From an uncultured Candidatus Thioglobus sp. (GTDB lineage Bacteria > Pseudomonadota > Gammaproteobacteria > PS1 > Pseudothioglobaceae), in contig CAJJCX010000003.1 in the NCBI GenBank assembly GCA_905182815.1, positions 1 to 64,000 of the forward strand: DNA of 64,000 nucleotides. The letters are read 5' to 3'. The notes under the pieces are model-generated. The model made no database searches and had not been told where the DNA came from. It worked only from the letters and a program-made list of their open reading frames with translations. Below are positions 1,367 through 62,394 of the stretch, piece by piece. The position numbers were made by a program, and so were the translations under genes. Every line of letters begins with the position of its first letter. Positions within the stretch are counted from its first letter, which is position 1.

Positions 1367-2245
1367 ATGATTTGGAAACAAATATCTTTTGAAGTTAAAA
1401 AATCTGAAACAGATCTTGTTTCAGAGGTTTTGATGGGTTTGGGAAGTGTATCAATAACCTACTCTGACGCTCTTGATGATGCAATTTATGAGCCTCCAGT
1501 TGGGCAAACGCCTTTGTGGGATAACGTTAAAGTAAATGCTTTATTTTCTTCAGAGGTAAATCAAAAATCTATTGAAACTTCAATTTCAGACATCTGTAAT
1601 ATTGTTGTTATAGATACTGTAACGCTTAAAGATAGAGTTTGGGAAGAGGAGTGCCAAAAAGATTTTCCTTCAATGCGCTTTGGTAAAAGACTTTGGGTTT
1701 GCCCTTCATGGGATACTGAATCTATCCTTTCAAATGACTCTATTGTAATTCATATGGATCCAGGGCTGGCTTTTGGAACTGGAACACATCAAACAACCAG
1801 TCTATGCCTCGAATACTTAGATTCAAATCCACCAAAAAATCTTCATGTTATTGATTTTGGTTGCGGTACTGGAATATTGGCAATAGCAGCTGCAAAGTTC
1901 GGTGCTAAAAGTGTTATCGCTATTGATAATGACCCTCAAGCGGTACTTTCAAGCAAAGAAAATGTAGCTAAAAATAAGTGTGAAAATACAATTACAACAA
2001 TTCATTCAATAAACCAGGGGAGTGATAGGAAATGTGATTTATTAATAGCTAATATTTTGGCCAATCCATTGGTTGAGTTGGAGCCATTATTTTCAGATTT
2101 AGTTCATACTAATGGAATGCTTCTACTATCTGGAATTTTAAAAGAACAAGTTGATAGGGTGGTTAAATGCTATTCAATCAATTTTTCTAATATTGAAGTT
2201 GCCAATAAGGGTGAATGGTTTAGAATTTCCGGAAAAAGAAAATAA
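1367..2245 (+). CDS. prmA: Ribosomal protein L11 methyltransferase
   Basis: PrmA uses S-adenosylmethionine to trimethylate ribosomal protein L11. The 292-residue length is normal for the family. The N-terminal substrate-recognition domain occupies about the first 110 residues. The class-I methyltransferase domain carries the PrmA-specific DPGLAFGTGTH block, the SAM-binding VIDFGCGTG motif and the catalytic-region motif LLIANILANPL. It follows alaS by about 40 bases on the same strand and could be co-transcribed with it; it converges on thiS. The frame is intact. Confidence 0.95.
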   Translation: MIWKQISFEVKKSETDLVSEVLMGLGSVSITYSDALDDAIYEPPVGQTPLWDNVKVNALFSSEVNQKSIETSISDICNIVVIDTVTLKDRVWEEECQKDFPSMRFGKRLWVCPSWDTESILSNDSIVIHMDPGLAFGTGTHQTTSLCLEYLDSNPPKNLHVIDFGCGTGILAIAAAKFGAKSVIAIDNDPQAVLSSKENVAKNKCENTITTIHSINQGSDRKCDLLIANILANPLVELEPLFSDLVHTNGMLLLSGILKEQVDRVVKCYSINFSNIEVANKGEWFRISGKRK

Positions 2246-2273
2246 AAACCATCGTTAAATTTATCACGTCTGC

Positions 2274-2474
2274 CTAGCCACCACCAACTGCATTAATCAC
2301 TTCAACCTTGTCTAGGTCTTTAAGTAGAAAAGAAGAATGATTAGATTTTGGAATAATTGATTCATTGATTTCGATTGCAATTCGCTGATTTTGATAACCT
2401 AGATGAACAATTAGATCTTCAATATTTGAATCTTCAGGGAGTGATATTTTTTCACCGTTTACTAAAATTTCCAC
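2274..2474 (-). CDS. thiS: Thiamine biosynthesis sulfur carrier protein ThiS
   Basis: ThiS is a small beta-grasp protein whose C-terminal glycine is adenylated by ThiF and converted to a thiocarboxylate, the sulfur donor for the thiazole ring made by ThiG. The product is 66 residues, starts MEILVNGEK and ends in the required Gly-Gly (AVGGG). It stands alone on the reverse strand between prmA and carA. Its partner thiG is about 30 kb away in this window, which is unusual because thiS and thiG are often neighbours. Paralogues such as MoaD also end in GG, but the start and the IAIEIN segment fit ThiS best. Confidence 0.9.
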   Translation of the reverse strand: MEILVNGEKISLPEDSNIEDLIVHLGYQNQRIAIEINESIIPKSNHSSFLLKDLDKVEVINAVGGG

Positions 2475-2596
2475 AAATGCATTAAGTTGTTATAGGCAAG
2501 CTAATTATAACATTGGATTACAAAATTCAGGATAAGTTAAGCTTAAACACATGGTAAAATTTGCGAAGTTTTTTGACCCCTATTAGGAGTAAAGTT

Positions 2597-3718
2597 TTGC
2601 CTCAAACTGCCATATTAGCTCTCGAAGATGGTACTGTTTTCTGGGGAGAATCTATTGGATCTATTGGCGAAACAGTTGGCGAGGTGGTCTTTAATACTGC
2701 AATGACGGGGTATCAAGAAATACTCACTGACCCATCCTATAGTCAGCAAATCGTTGCGCTCACTTATCCTCATATCGGCAATACTGGAATAAATATAGTC
2801 GATGAAGAATCATCAAGCGTTTATGCCTCTGGTTTAATTATTAGAAACTTACCACTTGCTTATAGTAATTGGCGCTCTGAGATGAGTCTTGATAACTACC
2901 TATCGAGTAATAATATAGTTGCAATTTCAAACATTGATACAAGGGCTTTGACTCGCCACCTAAGAACACATGGCGCCCTTAAAGGCTGCATAATGGCCTC
3001 TAATAAAATAGATTCGAGTAAGGCCATTCAAAAAGCAAAAGATTTTTCTGGTCTTAAAAATATGGATTTGGCTAAAGTGGTATCCACTCCTAAAACTTAC
3101 TCCTTTAATCAAGGATCTTTCAACATAAAAAATTCTACTTTTAACAAGACATCTTCAAAATTTAAAGTTGCAGTCTATGACTATGGAGTCAAGAAAAATA
3201 TTTTAAGAATGTTGGTTGATAGAGGTTGTGAGCTTACAGTCTTTAATGCAAAGGCTCCTCTTGAGGACTTACTAGCAACAAATCCTGATGGTGTTTTTCT
3301 TTCAAATGGTCCTGGAGATCCTGAGCCATGCGATTATGCGATTACAAGTATTAAACAATTATTAGAAAAAAATATTCCAATTTTTGGAATATGCCTTGGT
3401 CACCAGCTCTTATCAATTGCGTCTGGGGCTAAAACAGAGAAAATGAAATTCGGTCATCATGGGGCAAACCATCCAGTCCAAGACCTTAAATCAAAAAAAG
3501 TGATGATCACCTCCCAAAATCATGGCTTTGCGGTTTCAGAAAAGGGCATTCCAGATAATATTGAAGTAAGTCATAGATCATTGTTTGATAAAAGCATTCA
3601 AGGCATTAAGGTAAAGAATAAGCCTGCCTATAGTTTTCAAGGTCATCCTGAAGCATCTCCTGGGCCCCATGACGTAAGTTACCTGTTTGATGAATTTATA
3701 GGACTTATGTCAAAATGA
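2597..3718 (+). CDS. carA: Carbamoyl-phosphate synthase small subunit
   Basis: CarA hydrolyses glutamine and channels ammonia to CarB for carbamoyl phosphate, which feeds arginine and pyrimidine synthesis. I choose the TTG at 2597 because AGGAG lies at 2585-2589, seven bases upstream, and because the family's conserved start ([14 protein letters not shown]) follows at once. An in-frame TTG at 2561 has no such site. The product is 373 residues. It has the N-terminal CPSase domain and then a class-I glutamine amidotransferase domain with nucleophile Cys in GICLGHQ and the His/Glu pair in GHPEASPGP. carB follows after 25 bases. Confidence 0.95.
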
Positions 3719-55093: not shown

Positions 55094-57758
55094 ATGTCTG
55101 ACGATATCGATTCTAAAGAAATTCTCGAGCAAAAGTTCCCAATAGTTACTATAGAAGACGAGATGCGTGACTCCTATCTGGAGTACGCAATGAGCGTAAT
55201 TGTGGGAAGGGCTTTGCCTGATGTTAGAGACGGCTTAAAGCCAGTTCATAGACGCGTTCTTTATGCCATGGAAGTGCTTGGTAATGATTACAATAAATCT
55301 TATAAAAAATCTGCCCGAATTGTGGGTGATGTGATTGGTAAGTATCACCCTCATGGTGACACAGCAGTTTATGACACTATCGTAAGAATGGCTCAGCCAT
55401 TTTCGATGAGATGTATCCTAGTAGATGGCCAAGGAAACTTTGGCTCGGTAGATGGAGACCGAGCAGCTGCTATGCGTTATACAGAAATACGCATGACAAA
55501 GCTTTCACATGAACTTTTAAGAGACCTAGATAAAGAAACAGTAGACTTTATTGATAACTATGATGGCTCTGAAAGTGAGCCTTCAGTATTGCCTACTCGA
55601 GTCCCTACTTTATTAGTGAATGGCTCTTCAGGTATTGCTGTGGGAATGGCCACAAATATTCCACCTCATAACCCAACTGAAGTTACTGAGGCTTGCCTGA
55701 GGTTTATTGATAATGAAGACATAACTATTGATGAGCTTTTAGAAATTATGCCTGGACCTGATTTTCCTACAGCTGGAATAATTAATGGCGCCTCTGGTAT
55801 TCGAGAAGCTTATGAGACTGGCAAGGGGAAGATTTATATGCGCTCAAGATCTCATGTTGAAGGCGAAGATAAATTAAGCATCGTTGTAACTGAGCTCCCG
55901 TATCAAGTTAATAAAGCAAGGCTCATTACTAAAATTGCAGAGCTTGTTAAAGATAAAAAGATTGATGGAATAACTGGTCTTAGAGATGAGTCAGATAAAG
56001 ATGGTATGCGAATGGTGGTTGAGCTTAGGAGGGGAGAAGTTCCTGAGGTGATGCTAAATAACTTATATAAGCTAACAGAAATGCAAACTGTTTTTGGTAT
56101 CAACATGGTTGCAATTGACCAAGGTATGCCAAAACTAATGAATCTAAAGTCTATCTTGAGTGCATTTATTGCGCATAGAAGAGAGATAGTAACTCGTCGC
56201 TCTATTTTTGAGCTTAATAAGGCAAAAGACCGAGCTCATTTATTGGAGGGCTTATCTGTCGCTCTTTTTAACATAGATGAGGTTATAGCGCTTATAAAGG
56301 CTGCACAGAATCCTAGTGAGGCAAAAGAAGGCTTAGTTGCAAGAGTCTGGAAGGGCTCTGTCATTCAAGAGCTTATTGGTGATAGAGACATGGCTCAGTT
56401 CAAACCGCAAGATTTAGGCGCTGATCTTGGCCTTCAAAAGAATGGGGATTATCAATTATCTGAAAAACAAGCGCAAGCTATTCTTGATTTAAGACTCCAT
56501 AGATTAACGGGTCTTGAAAAGGACAAAATATTTAATGAATTTAATGGATTACTTGAAGAAATCAAAAAGTTACTTGATATTCTTCAAAATCCAGACCAAT
56601 TAATGGATGTTATTCGTCAAGAAATTGCTGAAATTCGAGATAATTTTGGCGCTCCTCGAATTACTGAGATTATCGAAAATAAAATCGACCTTACACTTGA
56701 AGATTTAATTGCTCAAGAAGATAGAGTGGTAACTTTATCTCATGGAGGTTACGTTAAGGCACAATCGCTTAGTGATTATCAAGCGCAAAGAAGAGGTGGC
56801 AAGGGTAAAGCTGCCACTAAGATGAAAGATGAGGATTTTGTAGATCAGTTATTTGTAGCAAACTCCCATGACACGGTTTTATGCTTCTCATCTAGAGGAA
56901 GAGTTCACTGGCTTAAAGTTTATGAACTGCCAATGGCCTCAAGAATTTCTAGAGGAAAGCCAATTATTAACCTGCTTCCTTTAGAGAAGGATGAGTCGAT
57001 AAATGCAATATTGCCAGTCAAAGAGTTTACTGATGATCAGTTCGTGTTTATGGTTACCAGTTCAGGCACGTGTAAAAAAACATCACTTAAAAACTTTTCA
57101 CGTCCAAGAAATGGCGGAATTATTGCAATTGAGCTAAGAGATGATGACAAGTTAGTTGGTGTTGAAATTACTGCCGGCGAGCATGACATCTTACTTTTCT
57201 CTTCAGCAGGAAAATCTATCCGCTTTAAAGAGTCTGATGTCCGCTCAGTTGGCCGAACAGCCATAGGAGTTAGAGGAATTCGTTTAGCTGATAAAGATCA
57301 AGTGGTTTCCTTGATTGTTGCAGTGTCGGGTGATCCTATTCTTACAGCAACTGAAAAAGGTTATGGTAAGAGAACTCAATTAGATGAATATCGCTCCCAA
57401 GCAAGAGGTGGCTCAGGTGTTATCTCAATAAAAACATCAGACAGAAATGGTGAAGTAGTTGGTGCTATTCAGGTTACGGATGAAGATGAAATGATGCTAA
57501 TTTCCAATAAAGGTACTTTGGTTAGAGCGCGCGCAGTTGATGTTTCAATTATTGGAAGGAATACTCAGGGCGTTACTTTAATTAACATTGCTGATGATGA
57601 AAAATTAGTTTCAGTAGCTAAAATAGCTGAAACAGATGATGAAGAAGAGGGTCGAGAATCAATTAGAAGTGGACGGCGCTCCATTGATAGAAGGTGGAAA
57701 TCAAGAAGATGATGATGCTTCTCCTCTGGCAAGCGATGATACTCAAGAAGATGAGTAG
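55094..57758 (+). CDS. gyrA: DNA gyrase subunit A (one frame break at the C-terminus)
   Basis: GyrA, with GyrB, introduces negative supercoils. The N-terminus has [17 protein letters not shown], catalytic Tyr129 in [10 protein letters not shown] and [13 protein letters not shown], where Thr occupies the position of E. coli Ser83 (a natural variant also seen in Pseudomonas). The GyrA box QAQRRGGKG starts the beta-pinwheel. A one-base shift near 57648-57655 alters the end: the raw frame stops at 57712, while the other frame gives an acidic tail ([16 protein letters not shown]... DTQEDE) to 57758. About 887 residues after repair. A strong terminator follows. Confidence 0.93.
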
Positions 57759-57951: not shown

Positions 57952-58950
57952 ATGAAAATTAAGTTTACCACTAAGCTATTTGGAGCTGTTGCTGGAGCAT
58001 TATTGCTTAGCACATCTGCAAATGCTGCATGTGGAAAAATAACAGTCGCAGACATGAATTGGGCATCAGCCTCTTTGATGGCTAATGTCGACAAAGCTAT
58101 GTTGGAAGCAATGGGCTGTGAAATTGAGCTAGTTGCTGGTTCTACAATGCCAACATTTACTTCAATGAATGAAACTGGTTCGCCAGACGTTGCTCCAGAA
58201 ATTTGGGCTAACGCAATGGCTGACCTAGTTGATAGTGCCGTTGGTGCAGGTCGTTTACATATTGGTAATATAGCTCCAATGTCAGGTCTTGGTGAAGGCT
58301 GGTGGGTTTTACCTGCAACGCTTGATGCTCACCCTGAGTTGACTTCAGCTGAAGCAATTCTAGCGCGTCCAGATTTATTCCCAGACAAAGAAGATCCTTC
58401 TATGGGTGCTTTCCATGGCTGTCCTGCAGGTTGGGGTTGTCAACTATCAAACCAAGCTCTTTATGACGCTTTTGATATGGAAGCTAAAGGTTGGAAACTA
58501 ATTGATCCAGGTTCAGCTGCTGGACTTGATGGTTCAATTGCAAAAGCATCAGAAAGTGGTGATAACTGGTTCGGTTACTACTGGAACCCAACATCATTAG
58601 TTGGTAAATATGACATGCAAGCTATCGATATGGGCTCTTATGCTGGTGATGATAACTGGGTGGGTTGTGTTGCTGTAGCTAGCACTGGTTGTGAGCCTTC
58701 ATCTTGGATTAATTCACGTGTTAATACACTGCTAAGTGACAACATGTATTACAACGGACCATCTGAAGCGATGAAGTATTTCACAGCTCGCACATGGCCT
58801 GGTTCTGTAATGAATCAAATGTTAGTCTGGATGGAAGACACTGGAGGCACAGGTGCAGACGCTTCTGTTGAATTCCTATCTTCACATGGAGACGTATGGA
58901 AGGCTTGGGTCAGTGCTGATGTTGCTGCCTCAGTAGAAGCTTCTCTATAA
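57952..58950 (+). CDS. Glycine betaine/proline ABC transporter substrate-binding protein
   Basis: A ProX/OpuAC-type periplasmic binding protein. The 332-residue product has a Sec signal peptide (about residues 1-25, ending ANA). It shows ITVADMNWASASLMANVDKAML, the aromatic WANAMADLV and WVLPATLDAHPEL regions and GYYWNPTSLVGKYDMQ. These supply the Trp/Tyr cage expected for quaternary amines. It precedes a permease (from 59194) and ATPase; a terminator directly after it suggests extra-high expression. The exact ligand (betaine, proline, choline or DMSP) is not determined. Confidence 0.88.
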   Translation: MKIKFTTKLFGAVAGALLLSTSANAACGKITVADMNWASASLMANVDKAMLEAMGCEIELVAGSTMPTFTSMNETGSPDVAPEIWANAMADLVDSAVGAGRLHIGNIAPMSGLGEGWWVLPATLDAHPELTSAEAILARPDLFPDKEDPSMGAFHGCPAGWGCQLSNQALYDAFDMEAKGWKLIDPGSAAGLDGSIAKASESGDNWFGYYWNPTSLVGKYDMQAIDMGSYAGDDNWVGCVAVASTGCEPSSWINSRVNTLLSDNMYYNGPSEAMKYFTARTWPGSVMNQMLVWMEDTGGTGADASVEFLSSHGDVWKAWVSADVAASVEASL

Positions 58951-59153: not shown

Positions 59154-59193
59154 AAAAATGTTTAAATTGTAAGAGTTTAAAAGGAGTTTTACC

Positions 59194-61363
59194 ATGGCGG
59201 CAGTTAGGCCAATTCCACAACAGTCAATAATAGAGTGTATTCCGCCAGCATCTGAAATAGCAGATCTGAGAATACTTGGTAAAGATTTAAACTTTATTCA
59301 AGCAATGACAAAAAGAGCTGATGACTTAACAACTCAGGCTCTTAGCGCTACAGATTATTCTCAGTTGGTTAAAATAACAGATAGCTTTTCAAAGCTGACT
59401 GATCGAGCGGAAGCTAAAACAAAAACGTTAAAAGAGTTAGCGAATGACTCAAACCCTTTAACTGAGGTTAATAATTCTGCAGAACTACTTGAAAAGGTTC
59501 AATTATTAGCTCAAGTCCTTGAGACTAAAACCCAGGAACTTTCTGGTCTCTACAGCTCAAATGAAAATTCATTATTAGAAAACTATGGTGGCTCTGTTAC
59601 TGAGCTTATTAATAGAGTTGACTCTATAAATAATCCTAATGAAGTTGTTTCTGTATTTCCTGAAATAGAGACTTTATTAAAAGCTATTAGTGAAAATGCG
59701 CAATATATAAATAATAATCCTAAGGCTCAAGAGTTACTAACTAAAGTTAAAGAACTTTCAAGTAGTTATTCTGATAAAGCAGATCAATATACTGATTCCT
59801 TTATGAGTGAGATGGGATCTCAAATTGCATTACTAAATCAAAAAATTACTGGTCTTAAAGGAAACATTGATTTCCTTAGCTCAAATTCTACTATTCAAAA
59901 TCATTTAGAACAGCTATCACAAATCCGAGAGCAAGTTAATGCTTCAGCCTCAATATATAAGAACTATCCTGGCGCTCGAGACATGATTTACAATTTAGAT
60001 ACGCTCAGTATTTCTACTCATGCAAAAGTCAAGGATATGTCTGAAAGTAATGAGATAGTTTCAGGCTTAATGCCATATATAAATGACCCTGAGGCCCTTT
60101 CTAGAGCAGTCAAAGAAGCTGCTATTAGAACTGATGTTTCAACTGTTGAAAATGTCTTAATGCCATTAGTTAATAAGGCAAATGAACTCAGTATAAAGGT
60201 CAATGAGTTGGCTGGTCTCTATGAGTCTGGCAATTACAGTGATATAAAAGTAAGAGCGGTAGCTAGTTTTGATAAAACTGTTGAAAGACTGGATAGGCAG
60301 TATATCTCCATACGATCAACTGACCCAGAGGCTTTGGCTGCAAATATAAGCGAGTATGCTAACGATGTTGGATCAAGTATTAACTCAATTCGCTCAGTTA
60401 ACCCGGAGTCTCAAATTCAACACTTTAGTAGCATGGCTTCTAGAGTTGGAGATTCAATAACTACGTCAGACTTTACCTTATTTGTAAATAATGTAATATC
60501 AATACCAGGGGACGTCATGATGAGTTCTCGTAACTGTGTTGATGCCGCCTTTAAAGACTTTACAAGAGAGTTTGGAAGTAATATTGAAGCATTCTTTGAT
60601 CCGTTAATGTTTTTTTTAGTTTGGTTGGAAAGATTATTATTATCAACGCCGTGGCCAGTTTTTCTGGGAGTGGCAGGAATTCTAGCATGGCTTGGTGCTC
60701 GAAGTATTAAGGTGTCAATTTCAGTAATGTTAGCATTCTTTGCAATTGGATTTCTAGATATGTGGGATCCTATGATATCAACTGTCACAATGATTTCAGC
60801 TGCGACACTTTTATGTTTGACGTTAGGAATGCCACTTGGTGTATGGATGTCAAAGTCTAATAGAGCACAATCCATAATAACCCCCGTATTAGATATTATG
60901 CAAACAATTCCACCTTTTGTGTATCTTATTCCTGTTGTTATGATGCTAGGTATTGGTAAGGTACCTGGATTAATTGCAGTTTGTATTTATGCTATGCCAC
61001 CTATTGTTCGATTAACAAATCTAGGTATACGATTGGTCGATAAGGAGGCTATGGAGGCTGCAGATGCTTTTGGTGCAACCTATACGCAGCGTTTATTTAT
61101 GGTGCAAATTCCGCTTGCTCTGCCAAATATTTTTGCTGGGATAAATCAGACTATTATGATGGCGCTAGCGATGGTTGTTATTGCTTCAATGATTGGAGTT
61201 GCAGGACTTGGACTTCCTGTACTTACAGGCTGTTCAAAATCAATATTTATCAATGGGTACGCTAAATGGACTTGCAATCGTTGCCTTAGCAGTTATATTC
61301 GATAGGGTTTCTCAAGCATTTGGTACTCGGATTCAAAAACACCGTTCTGGAGATGTTCTATGA
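59194..61363 (+). CDS. proW: Glycine betaine/proline ABC permease with long N-terminal extension (one frame break)
   Basis: About 722 residues after repair, twice the length of E. coli ProW (about 354). Residues about 30-440 are hydrophilic and predicted helical, with several repeats of a short unit: TKTQELSGLYSS (111-122), TKVKELSSSYSD (183-194) and IKVNELAGLYES (334-345). Membrane segments begin near 471, and the permease domain shows LTLGMPLGVWMS, IMQTIPPFVYLIP and the EAA-type EAADAFGATYTQRLFMVQIP. A shift near 61224 breaks the end; the other frame gives QAVQNQYLSMGTLNGLAIVA to 61363. It overlaps the ATPase gene by four bases (ATGA). Confidence 0.88.
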
Positions 61364-62394
61364 CACAGGATATAAAAATCAAAATTTCAAATTTAACTAA
61401 GATTTTTGGACCTAAGGCAGAGTCTGTTATAAAACATGTTGATAATGGAATGGGGAAAGATGATCTCCTTAAGGAGCATCAGCATGTTCTTGGATTGAGT
61501 AATATTAATCTTGATCTAGCAAACAAGAATATTGAAGTTATTATGGGCCTCTCTGGTTCTGGAAAATCCACACTTATTCGACATATTAATCGACTTATTG
61601 AGCCTACTGCTGGCTCAATCATGATTGGTGGTGAGGATGTGATTCAAATGCCAATGGAAAAACTTAGGCAATTTAGGCAACAAAAAACTGCAATGGTATT
61701 TCAAAGCTTTGCACTCCTTCCGCACAAAACAATTATGGATAATGTTTGTTTAGGTGTCCATTTGCAAGGAGTAAAGGGTGATGAAGCAGTTGCAAGAGCG
61801 AAGAAATGGATTGATCGAGTAGGTTTATCTGGATACGAAAATCGTTATCCGTCTCAGCTTTCAGGTGGAATGCAGCAGCGTGTTGGTTTGGCGAGAGCTT
61901 TAACGTGCGATACTGAAATTTTAATGATGGATGAGGCCTTTAGTGCGCTTGATCCACTCATACGAAGTGACATGCAAGATTTGTTACTGGAGCTCCAAAA
62001 AGAACTCCACAAGACTATTGTATTTATTACTCATGACCTTGAAGAGGCACTAAAGATTGGAGACCGTATTGCTATTCTTAATGGTGGCGAGCTGGTTCAG
62101 CATGGAACAACACAGGAAATTATAATGACTCCTGCTGATGATTATGTTAAGGACTTTGTCAAAAAAGTAAATCGCTCTCATGTCCTTCAAACAAAATCTG
62201 TAATGACTGATCAGAAGCCGGCAAAAGCTTCTTCAAGTATCGCTGTTAATGAGACGGATTCAGTGGACTCCGCTTTATGTGAGATGCTTCGTGAAAATGC
62301 TGATTGCTGCATAGTTCAAGACTCAGGTGGCTCAGTTGTAGGCTATTTAAATAAGAAAGATATAGCTGAAGTTGTTAAGCCATTAGAAGCTTAA
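61360..62394 (+). CDS. proV: Glycine betaine/proline ABC transporter ATP-binding protein
   Basis: A ProV-type ATPase of 344 residues. Walker A is GLSGSGKST, followed by Q-loop FQSFALLPHKT, signature LSGGMQQRVGLARA, Walker B ILMMDEAFSALDP and H-loop FITHDLEEAL. The C-terminus (about 270-340) holds a CBS-like domain (SSIAVNETDSVDSALCEML, VGYLNKKDIAEVV), which in homologues senses ionic strength. The ATG overlaps the permease stop. It converges on prfC, three bases apart. Confidence 0.93.
   Translation: MTQDIKIKISNLTKIFGPKAESVIKHVDNGMGKDDLLKEHQHVLGLSNINLDLANKNIEVIMGLSGSGKSTLIRHINRLIEPTAGSIMIGGEDVIQMPMEKLRQFRQQKTAMVFQSFALLPHKTIMDNVCLGVHLQGVKGDEAVARAKKWIDRVGLSGYENRYPSQLSGGMQQRVGLARALTCDTEILMMDEAFSALDPLIRSDMQDLLLELQKELHKTIVFITHDLEEALKIGDRIAILNGGELVQHGTTQEIIMTPADDYVKDFVKKVNRSHVLQTKSVMTDQKPAKASSSIAVNETDSVDSALCEMLRENADCCIVQDSGGSVVGYLNKKDIAEVVKPLEA

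Follow-up and report, generated by a model that had tools for sequence, protein, structure and literature searches.

Our results show that the long N-terminal arm of a ProW/ChoW-type permease encoded in the window (the whole stretch of 64,000 nucleotides analysed here) is a real, single-origin and lineage-specific accessory domain, carried by a known type of importer in the SUP05/Thioglobus group. About 440–450 hydrophilic residues precede the permease, none of their segments being hydrophobic enough to span a membrane, and matches to the ProW/ChoW models begin only at residue 462–467. The original prediction had described, from the letters of the DNA, a ProW-type permease with a helical N-terminal extension that contains internal repeats, with more than 400 hydrophilic residues in an unbroken frame and a permease domain starting only near residue 470; each of these points is supported, and the stretch is conserved over its whole length in relatives.

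The importer operon and its permease

The operon is read in the order binding protein, permease and ATPase, and comprises the following features (positions are those of the window):

57952-58950, + strand: substrate-binding protein gene, 332 aa, with a signal peptide (PF04069, E 2.9e-39; closest solved relative DmpX, PDB 7yle)
59194-61305, + strand: permease ORF including the N-terminal extension; 703 aa in this assembly, about 722 aa in the native frame
60577-60645, + strand: amphipathic helix before TM1, residues 462-484, assigned from its hydrophobic moment and from divergent variants
60649-61233, + strand: ProW/ChoW-type transmembrane core up to the frameshift, with the EAA loop at residues 618-629 (OpuA, PDB 7ahc, E 8.6e-51)
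61219-61226, + strand: one extra base relative to all relatives (frameshift)
61360-62394, + strand: ABC ATPase gene, 344 aa, ProV/ChoV type, with a partial CBS domain

The permease is thus flanked by an OpuAC binding protein and a ProV-type ATPase, an arrangement that is kept in relatives. The structure nearest to the binding protein is that of DmpX (7yle, E 6.6e-52), and PMC10030565 lists eight DMSP-pocket residues for RnDmpX, seven of which are identical in the window protein (Trp35, Thr64, Trp84, Glu113, Trp152, Tyr200 and Trp202), while Ala153 is replaced by Gly. Judged by its sequence, the operon looks like a DmpXWV importer of the DMSP/betaine type, and the similarity to 7yle together with the pocket residues makes a DMSP/betaine-type substrate likely. 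The same paper reports dmpX in Candidatus Thioglobus, and Thioglobus dmpX as abundant in polar waters. The permease core matches PF00528 (BPD_transp_1) at residues 545–678 with 74.7 bits (Pfam cut-off 26.4), and an intact relative, L002, does not reach the ProW/ChoW equivalog cut-offs (249.4 of 363 bits for TIGR03416 and 242.2 of 439 bits for NF008196).

In relatives the permease has about 722 aa and ends in ...AIVALAVIFDRVSQAFGTRIQKHRSGDVL, with a stop codon overlapping the start of the ATPase gene; the corresponding native stop in the window is at 61361–61363. The frame had been predicted to run to 61363, but in the window it stops at 61305: because of a single extra base at about 61222, the permease ends early, and 21 off-frame residues replace the last 40 native ones. 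The extra base is likely a sequencing or assembly error, since dsbB of the same genome (G000:C4:126261-126703) is also split into two frames. A second ProW-like permease of this genome (G000:C2:73999-74662) is split in the same way, and together with dsbB it suggests an indel-prone assembly.

Some side observations concern other genes. The C-terminal tail of gyrA (window 57600–57712) may be frameshifted too, and the alternative frame gives an acidic tail like that of the relatives. One carrier permease (L012 in G010, minus strand 1381–3480) lacks 22 residues of the transmembrane core and keeps the whole arm. Further oversized betaine-type permeases occur in the same genomes (L041, L042, L036 and L038), and have either 704–822 aa with two permease domains or 498–503 aa with an unrelated N-terminal part.

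Distribution and origin of the arm

A search with a profile of the extension (A2) covered 83 genomes from the family of the window and detected the arm in 24, which belong to two genera; its length is nearly constant. Of 369 genomes sampled from the class, the window's own alone had the arm, and 398 genomes of the phylum gave just two weak matches (G472 and G659), which were rejected as carriers, being unrelated NtrC-type regulators matched by chance. Each carrier genome holds a single match, with no stand-alone or paralogous copy, and the arm was not matched in phages, plasmids or viral contigs, which speaks against a phage or plasmid origin. Searches of Pfam, NCBIfam, PHROGs and PDB sequences identified no known domain in the arm, giving scattered weak matches to unrelated coiled-coil or helical families that differ from member to member. 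No match to the extension in the PDB sequence search was credible, and spectrin was absent among the 25 families listed, out of 36, when 13 extension sequences were scanned against Pfam with E values up to 0.1.

Permeases without the arm are ordinary chains of about 295–310 aa, found in the sister genera g278 and g280, in other Gammaproteobacteria and in Alphaproteobacteria, with a core identity of 54–70%; besides the sister genera, some 25 genomes have the permease at this ordinary size. Their start, for example MDFLGKFPAMSRGELRDFKKGIDGSFSEFT, aligns with residues 436–456 of the long form (VISIPGDVMMSSRNCVDAAFKDFT), which means that the arm came in before, or instead of, about the first 15 residues. 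Homologues lacking the extension and starting near residue 440, which the original prediction had raised as a sign against itself, are common, but they lie in other genera. Some close relatives of the carriers are devoid of the entire operon. In the tree of the permease core all the extended proteins fall into one clade (support 100/99, present in 100% of bootstrap trees), and the operon lies between gyrA and prfC in both carrier genera; one sister-genus operon stands beside another gene. The simplest reading of these sequences is that the arm was gained once, in the common ancestor of the two genera. One sister genus also holds DmpX-like binding proteins, in systems without the arm, whose N-termini resemble uncleaved membrane anchors rather than ordinary signal peptides (L100 703–1743, L102 778–1797 and L103 794–1813).

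Position and fold of the arm

The arm and its landmarks in the window are the following:

59194-60549, + strand: N-terminal extension, residues 1-452, all-helical, acidic (40 K+R, 60 D+E), of no known family
59206-59373, + strand: N-terminal end of the arm, residues 5-60, conserved (residues 1-60 hold 16 columns that are invariant in 24 sequences)
59236-59238, + strand: Cys15, invariant
60535-60537, + strand: Cys448, invariant (arm-less permeases have Thr, Ala, Ser or similar at this position)
59371-59619, + strand: 83-residue repeat unit 1, residues 60-142, boundaries approximate
59620-59868, + strand: 83-residue repeat unit 2, residues 143-225
59869-60117, + strand: 83-residue repeat unit 3, residues 226-308, clear only to about 285

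Downstream of the arm come the amphipathic segment (462–484) and then seven hydrophobic segments. With segment borders assigned by hand and the EAA loop (around 618–629) taken as cytoplasmic, the loops on the cytoplasmic side carry 1.9, 1.9, 5.0 and 4.0 K+R and those on the periplasmic side 0, 1.0 and 0. The 100-residue N-terminal tail of ProW is periplasmic, according to the title of Whitley 1994 in the reference list of PMC6110835; the original prediction had given E. coli ProW about 100 residues at this place, in agreement with that title. On account of the seven transmembrane helices, the positive-inside loops, the cytoplasmic EAA loop and the position of the ProW tail, the N-terminal arm is probably outside the inner membrane, in the periplasm. 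The caveat is that translocation was studied for the ProW tail, which is far shorter than a charged N-tail of 440 residues.

The arm carries no signal peptide, and its roughly 100 charged residues would be easier to retain inside the cell; moreover, in the window's own sequence residues 466–490 are fairly hydrophobic. These features would suit a cytoplasmic arm, with residues 462–484 as an additional transmembrane helix; the role of such an arm would be to sense ionic strength or to interact with the ATPase or with other cytoplasmic proteins. We consider this unlikely, although it is the strongest competitor. The segment is amphipathic, with D, E or N in divergent carriers (for instance FAWLDSFLNGFEGLLL), and the same segment precedes TM1 in the arm-less permeases. 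In addition, N-out is favoured by the distribution of positive charges over the loops and by the periplasmic ProW tail known from the title cited above, and a pair of invariant cysteines with no others beside them is typically found in an oxidising compartment.

These cysteines, C15 and C448, are the only two in the extension in all 24 sequences, and they are 433 or 434 residues apart in 23 of them. Cysteine makes up 1.1% of the window's large ORFs, and therefore about five would be expected in the extension. DsbA is encoded in 8 of 8 carriers and DsbB in 6 of 8. From this pattern in the sequences we read C15 and C448 as forming disulfides in the periplasm, within the chain or between two permease subunits. 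An intramolecular C15–C448 bond would need the arm to fold back, because a straight rod holds the two cysteines far apart.

What fold may the arm adopt? It had been predicted that the extension contains internal repeats, and the repeats are real, but the register proposed for them was wrong, the dominant unit having 83 residues. This repeat runs ungapped over about residues 95–285, with 95–147 equivalent to 178–230 and 142 onward equivalent to 225 onward, and a self-comparison of the profile scored 49, whereas 60 heptad-block shuffles reached at most 24. The 111/183 pair proposed earlier corresponds to a weaker offset of 72 residues, and the unit at 334 matches that at 111 at an offset of 223. 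AlphaFold models of the extension alone (13 sequences) had a mean pLDDT of 65 and a pTM of 0.45, and that of the full protein a pLDDT of 49. The predicted helices span residues 19–50, 55–83, 89–143, 148–172, 177–227, 231–255 and 261–285, of which 55–83, 89–143, 148–172 and 177–227 have pLDDT values mostly of 70–95; model support is better for residues 30–250 than for 290–375, and 309–375 fall under 50. Foldseek returned no match at E below 0.001. When 950 chains were re-aligned, the top four were spectrin-type repeats, with Z values of 11.1–12.8 over 244–262 residues and an rmsd of 15–19 Å, and such Z values lie within the range reached by unrelated helical models. Together with the repeat pattern, these matches are no more than suggestive of an arm built of spectrin-type three-helix bundles.

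Function, constraint and comparison with known systems

Our preferred explanation, to which as a whole we give slightly less than an even chance, is that of a periplasmic arm, an elongated three-helix array with disulfide-forming cysteines, that acts as a scaffold or tether. We propose that the ProW/ChoW-type permease of a DmpXWV-like importer gained, once, an N-terminal domain of about 440 residues, which would hang in the periplasm and fold as an elongated array of spectrin-like three-helix bundles. Its variable middle would be a spacer between the conserved distal N-terminal end and the conserved membrane-proximal end, and the two cysteines would be bonded to each other or across two permease subunits. 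The rod might then serve as a periplasmic scaffold or tether, keeping a partner at a fixed distance from the permease; this partner, at the conserved tip, could be the binding protein, which is the obvious candidate, or, as likely, an envelope component. If the arm is a three-helix array, its 420 residues would measure, by our own estimate, roughly 200 Å (420 x 1.5 Å / 3), which is about as much as the periplasm is wide. The more specific picture of a periplasm-spanning, disulfide-linked, spectrin-like array on the permease of an ABC importer, exported without a signal peptide, seems to us doubtful as a complete statement. Among the three functions offered by the original prediction, a coiled-coil sensor, an osmosensor or a docking platform for the binding protein, a coiled-coil-like periplasmic element fits best.

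The docking platform fares worse. There the arm would capture the binding protein and raise its local concentration at the permease, which would make sense for carriers, whose binding protein is predicted to be soluble and periplasmic (signal peptide, ANA-A cleavage), when some sister-genus binding proteins look membrane-anchored. Nevertheless, the binding proteins of systems with and without the arm show no insertion or surface change that goes with its presence, binding protein and arm are both strongly acidic (about -22 to -28 for the binding protein and about -20 to -30 for the arm), and membrane anchoring is inconsistent in the plain systems, L101 having an ordinary signal peptide. We regard docking as a quite unlikely function.

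The extension has a dN/dS of 0.07–0.15 in most close pairs and of 0.3–0.4 in two, and the core one of 0.01–0.09; by these ratios the extension is under purifying selection. Its length up to the membrane-proximal helix is 451–453 residues in 23 of the 24 sequences, one of these being a contig-cut chain of 442 that is missing its first ten residues, and 460 in G019, whose sequences lie on two contig ends and were joined for alignment. Invariant columns cluster in residues 1–60 and 441–480, and there are none in 121–200. One could still suppose that the arm is a tolerated, largely non-functional insertion drifting under weak constraint, as it occurs in two genera only and changes far more quickly than the core (between the two genera, 39% of its residues are identical, versus 84% in the core), with a variable middle (residues 110–290) that is only 23–31% identical. 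This is improbable, given that dN/dS is well below 1, that length is held within 1–2 residues in 23 of 24 sequences and both cysteines in all of them, and that the arm is retained in streamlined genomes of about 1.3–1.8 Mb.

The start of the long form is marked by the following site:

59182-59186, + strand: ribosome-binding site AGGAG for the long form; GGAG or AGGA at the same, constant distance from the long start in 20 of the 22 relatives with readable upstream DNA

An assembly chimera or a wrong start, with the true permease beginning near residue 442, is hardly credible: the window assembly does have a frameshift, and the invariant Met442/Met443 sits where arm-less permeases begin, yet no conserved ribosome-binding site is present there, for which reason an internal start at Met442 was rejected, whereas that at residue 1 is conserved, the extension is under purifying selection and misassembly is excluded, an identical arrangement in one open frame being shared by 24 genomes from two genera.

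Importers of this ABC class are important routes of osmolyte and DMSP uptake in the sea, and that an arm was gained once, has a strictly conserved length and persists in small genomes suggests a mode of importer organisation in the periplasm that has gone unrecognised. The arm is also a natural test case for the length of N-tail that can be exported when no signal peptide is present. Closely related systems of both kinds, armed and arm-less, occur within one family and allow a direct comparison. If the proposed fold is true, a spectrin-like array would be a new accessory module of ABC importers; in the open literature we found no paper that links a periplasmic ABC permease to domains of the spectrin type.

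The best structural matches of the arm model are spectrin repeats (3edv, 1u4q) and plectin (5j1i), whose linked three-helix bundles show a pattern of short and long helices like the one predicted for the arm. In spectrin arrays a long helix is common to neighbouring bundles, and the arm model similarly alternates helices of about 25 and about 53 residues. However, spectrin repeats have a period of about 106 residues and the arm one of 83, no sequence relationship to spectrin was detected, and the arm is bacterial and presumably periplasmic. The closest solved permease core is that of Lactococcus lactis OpuA (PDB 7ahc, E 8.6e-51), which also has an accessory extracellular domain fused to its permease chain; in OpuA this is a C-terminal substrate-binding domain, whereas in the window permease it is an N-terminal helical repeat array. 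With E. coli ProW, the core aligns to the ProW model over residues 467–712 of the intact relative; ProW, however, has before TM1 a periplasmic tail of about 100 residues, as worded in the title cited in PMC6110835, and the window-type arm has about 440, bears repeats and contains two invariant cysteines. Finally, the DMSP importer DmpXWV of Ruegeria/Roseovarius and SAR11 (PMC10030565) has the same gene order of binding protein, permease and ATPase, and an N-terminal extension on its permease is not described in the available part of that paper; the DmpXWV-type permeases in the genomes we examined have about 295 aa and no arm, in contrast to the permease of the window.
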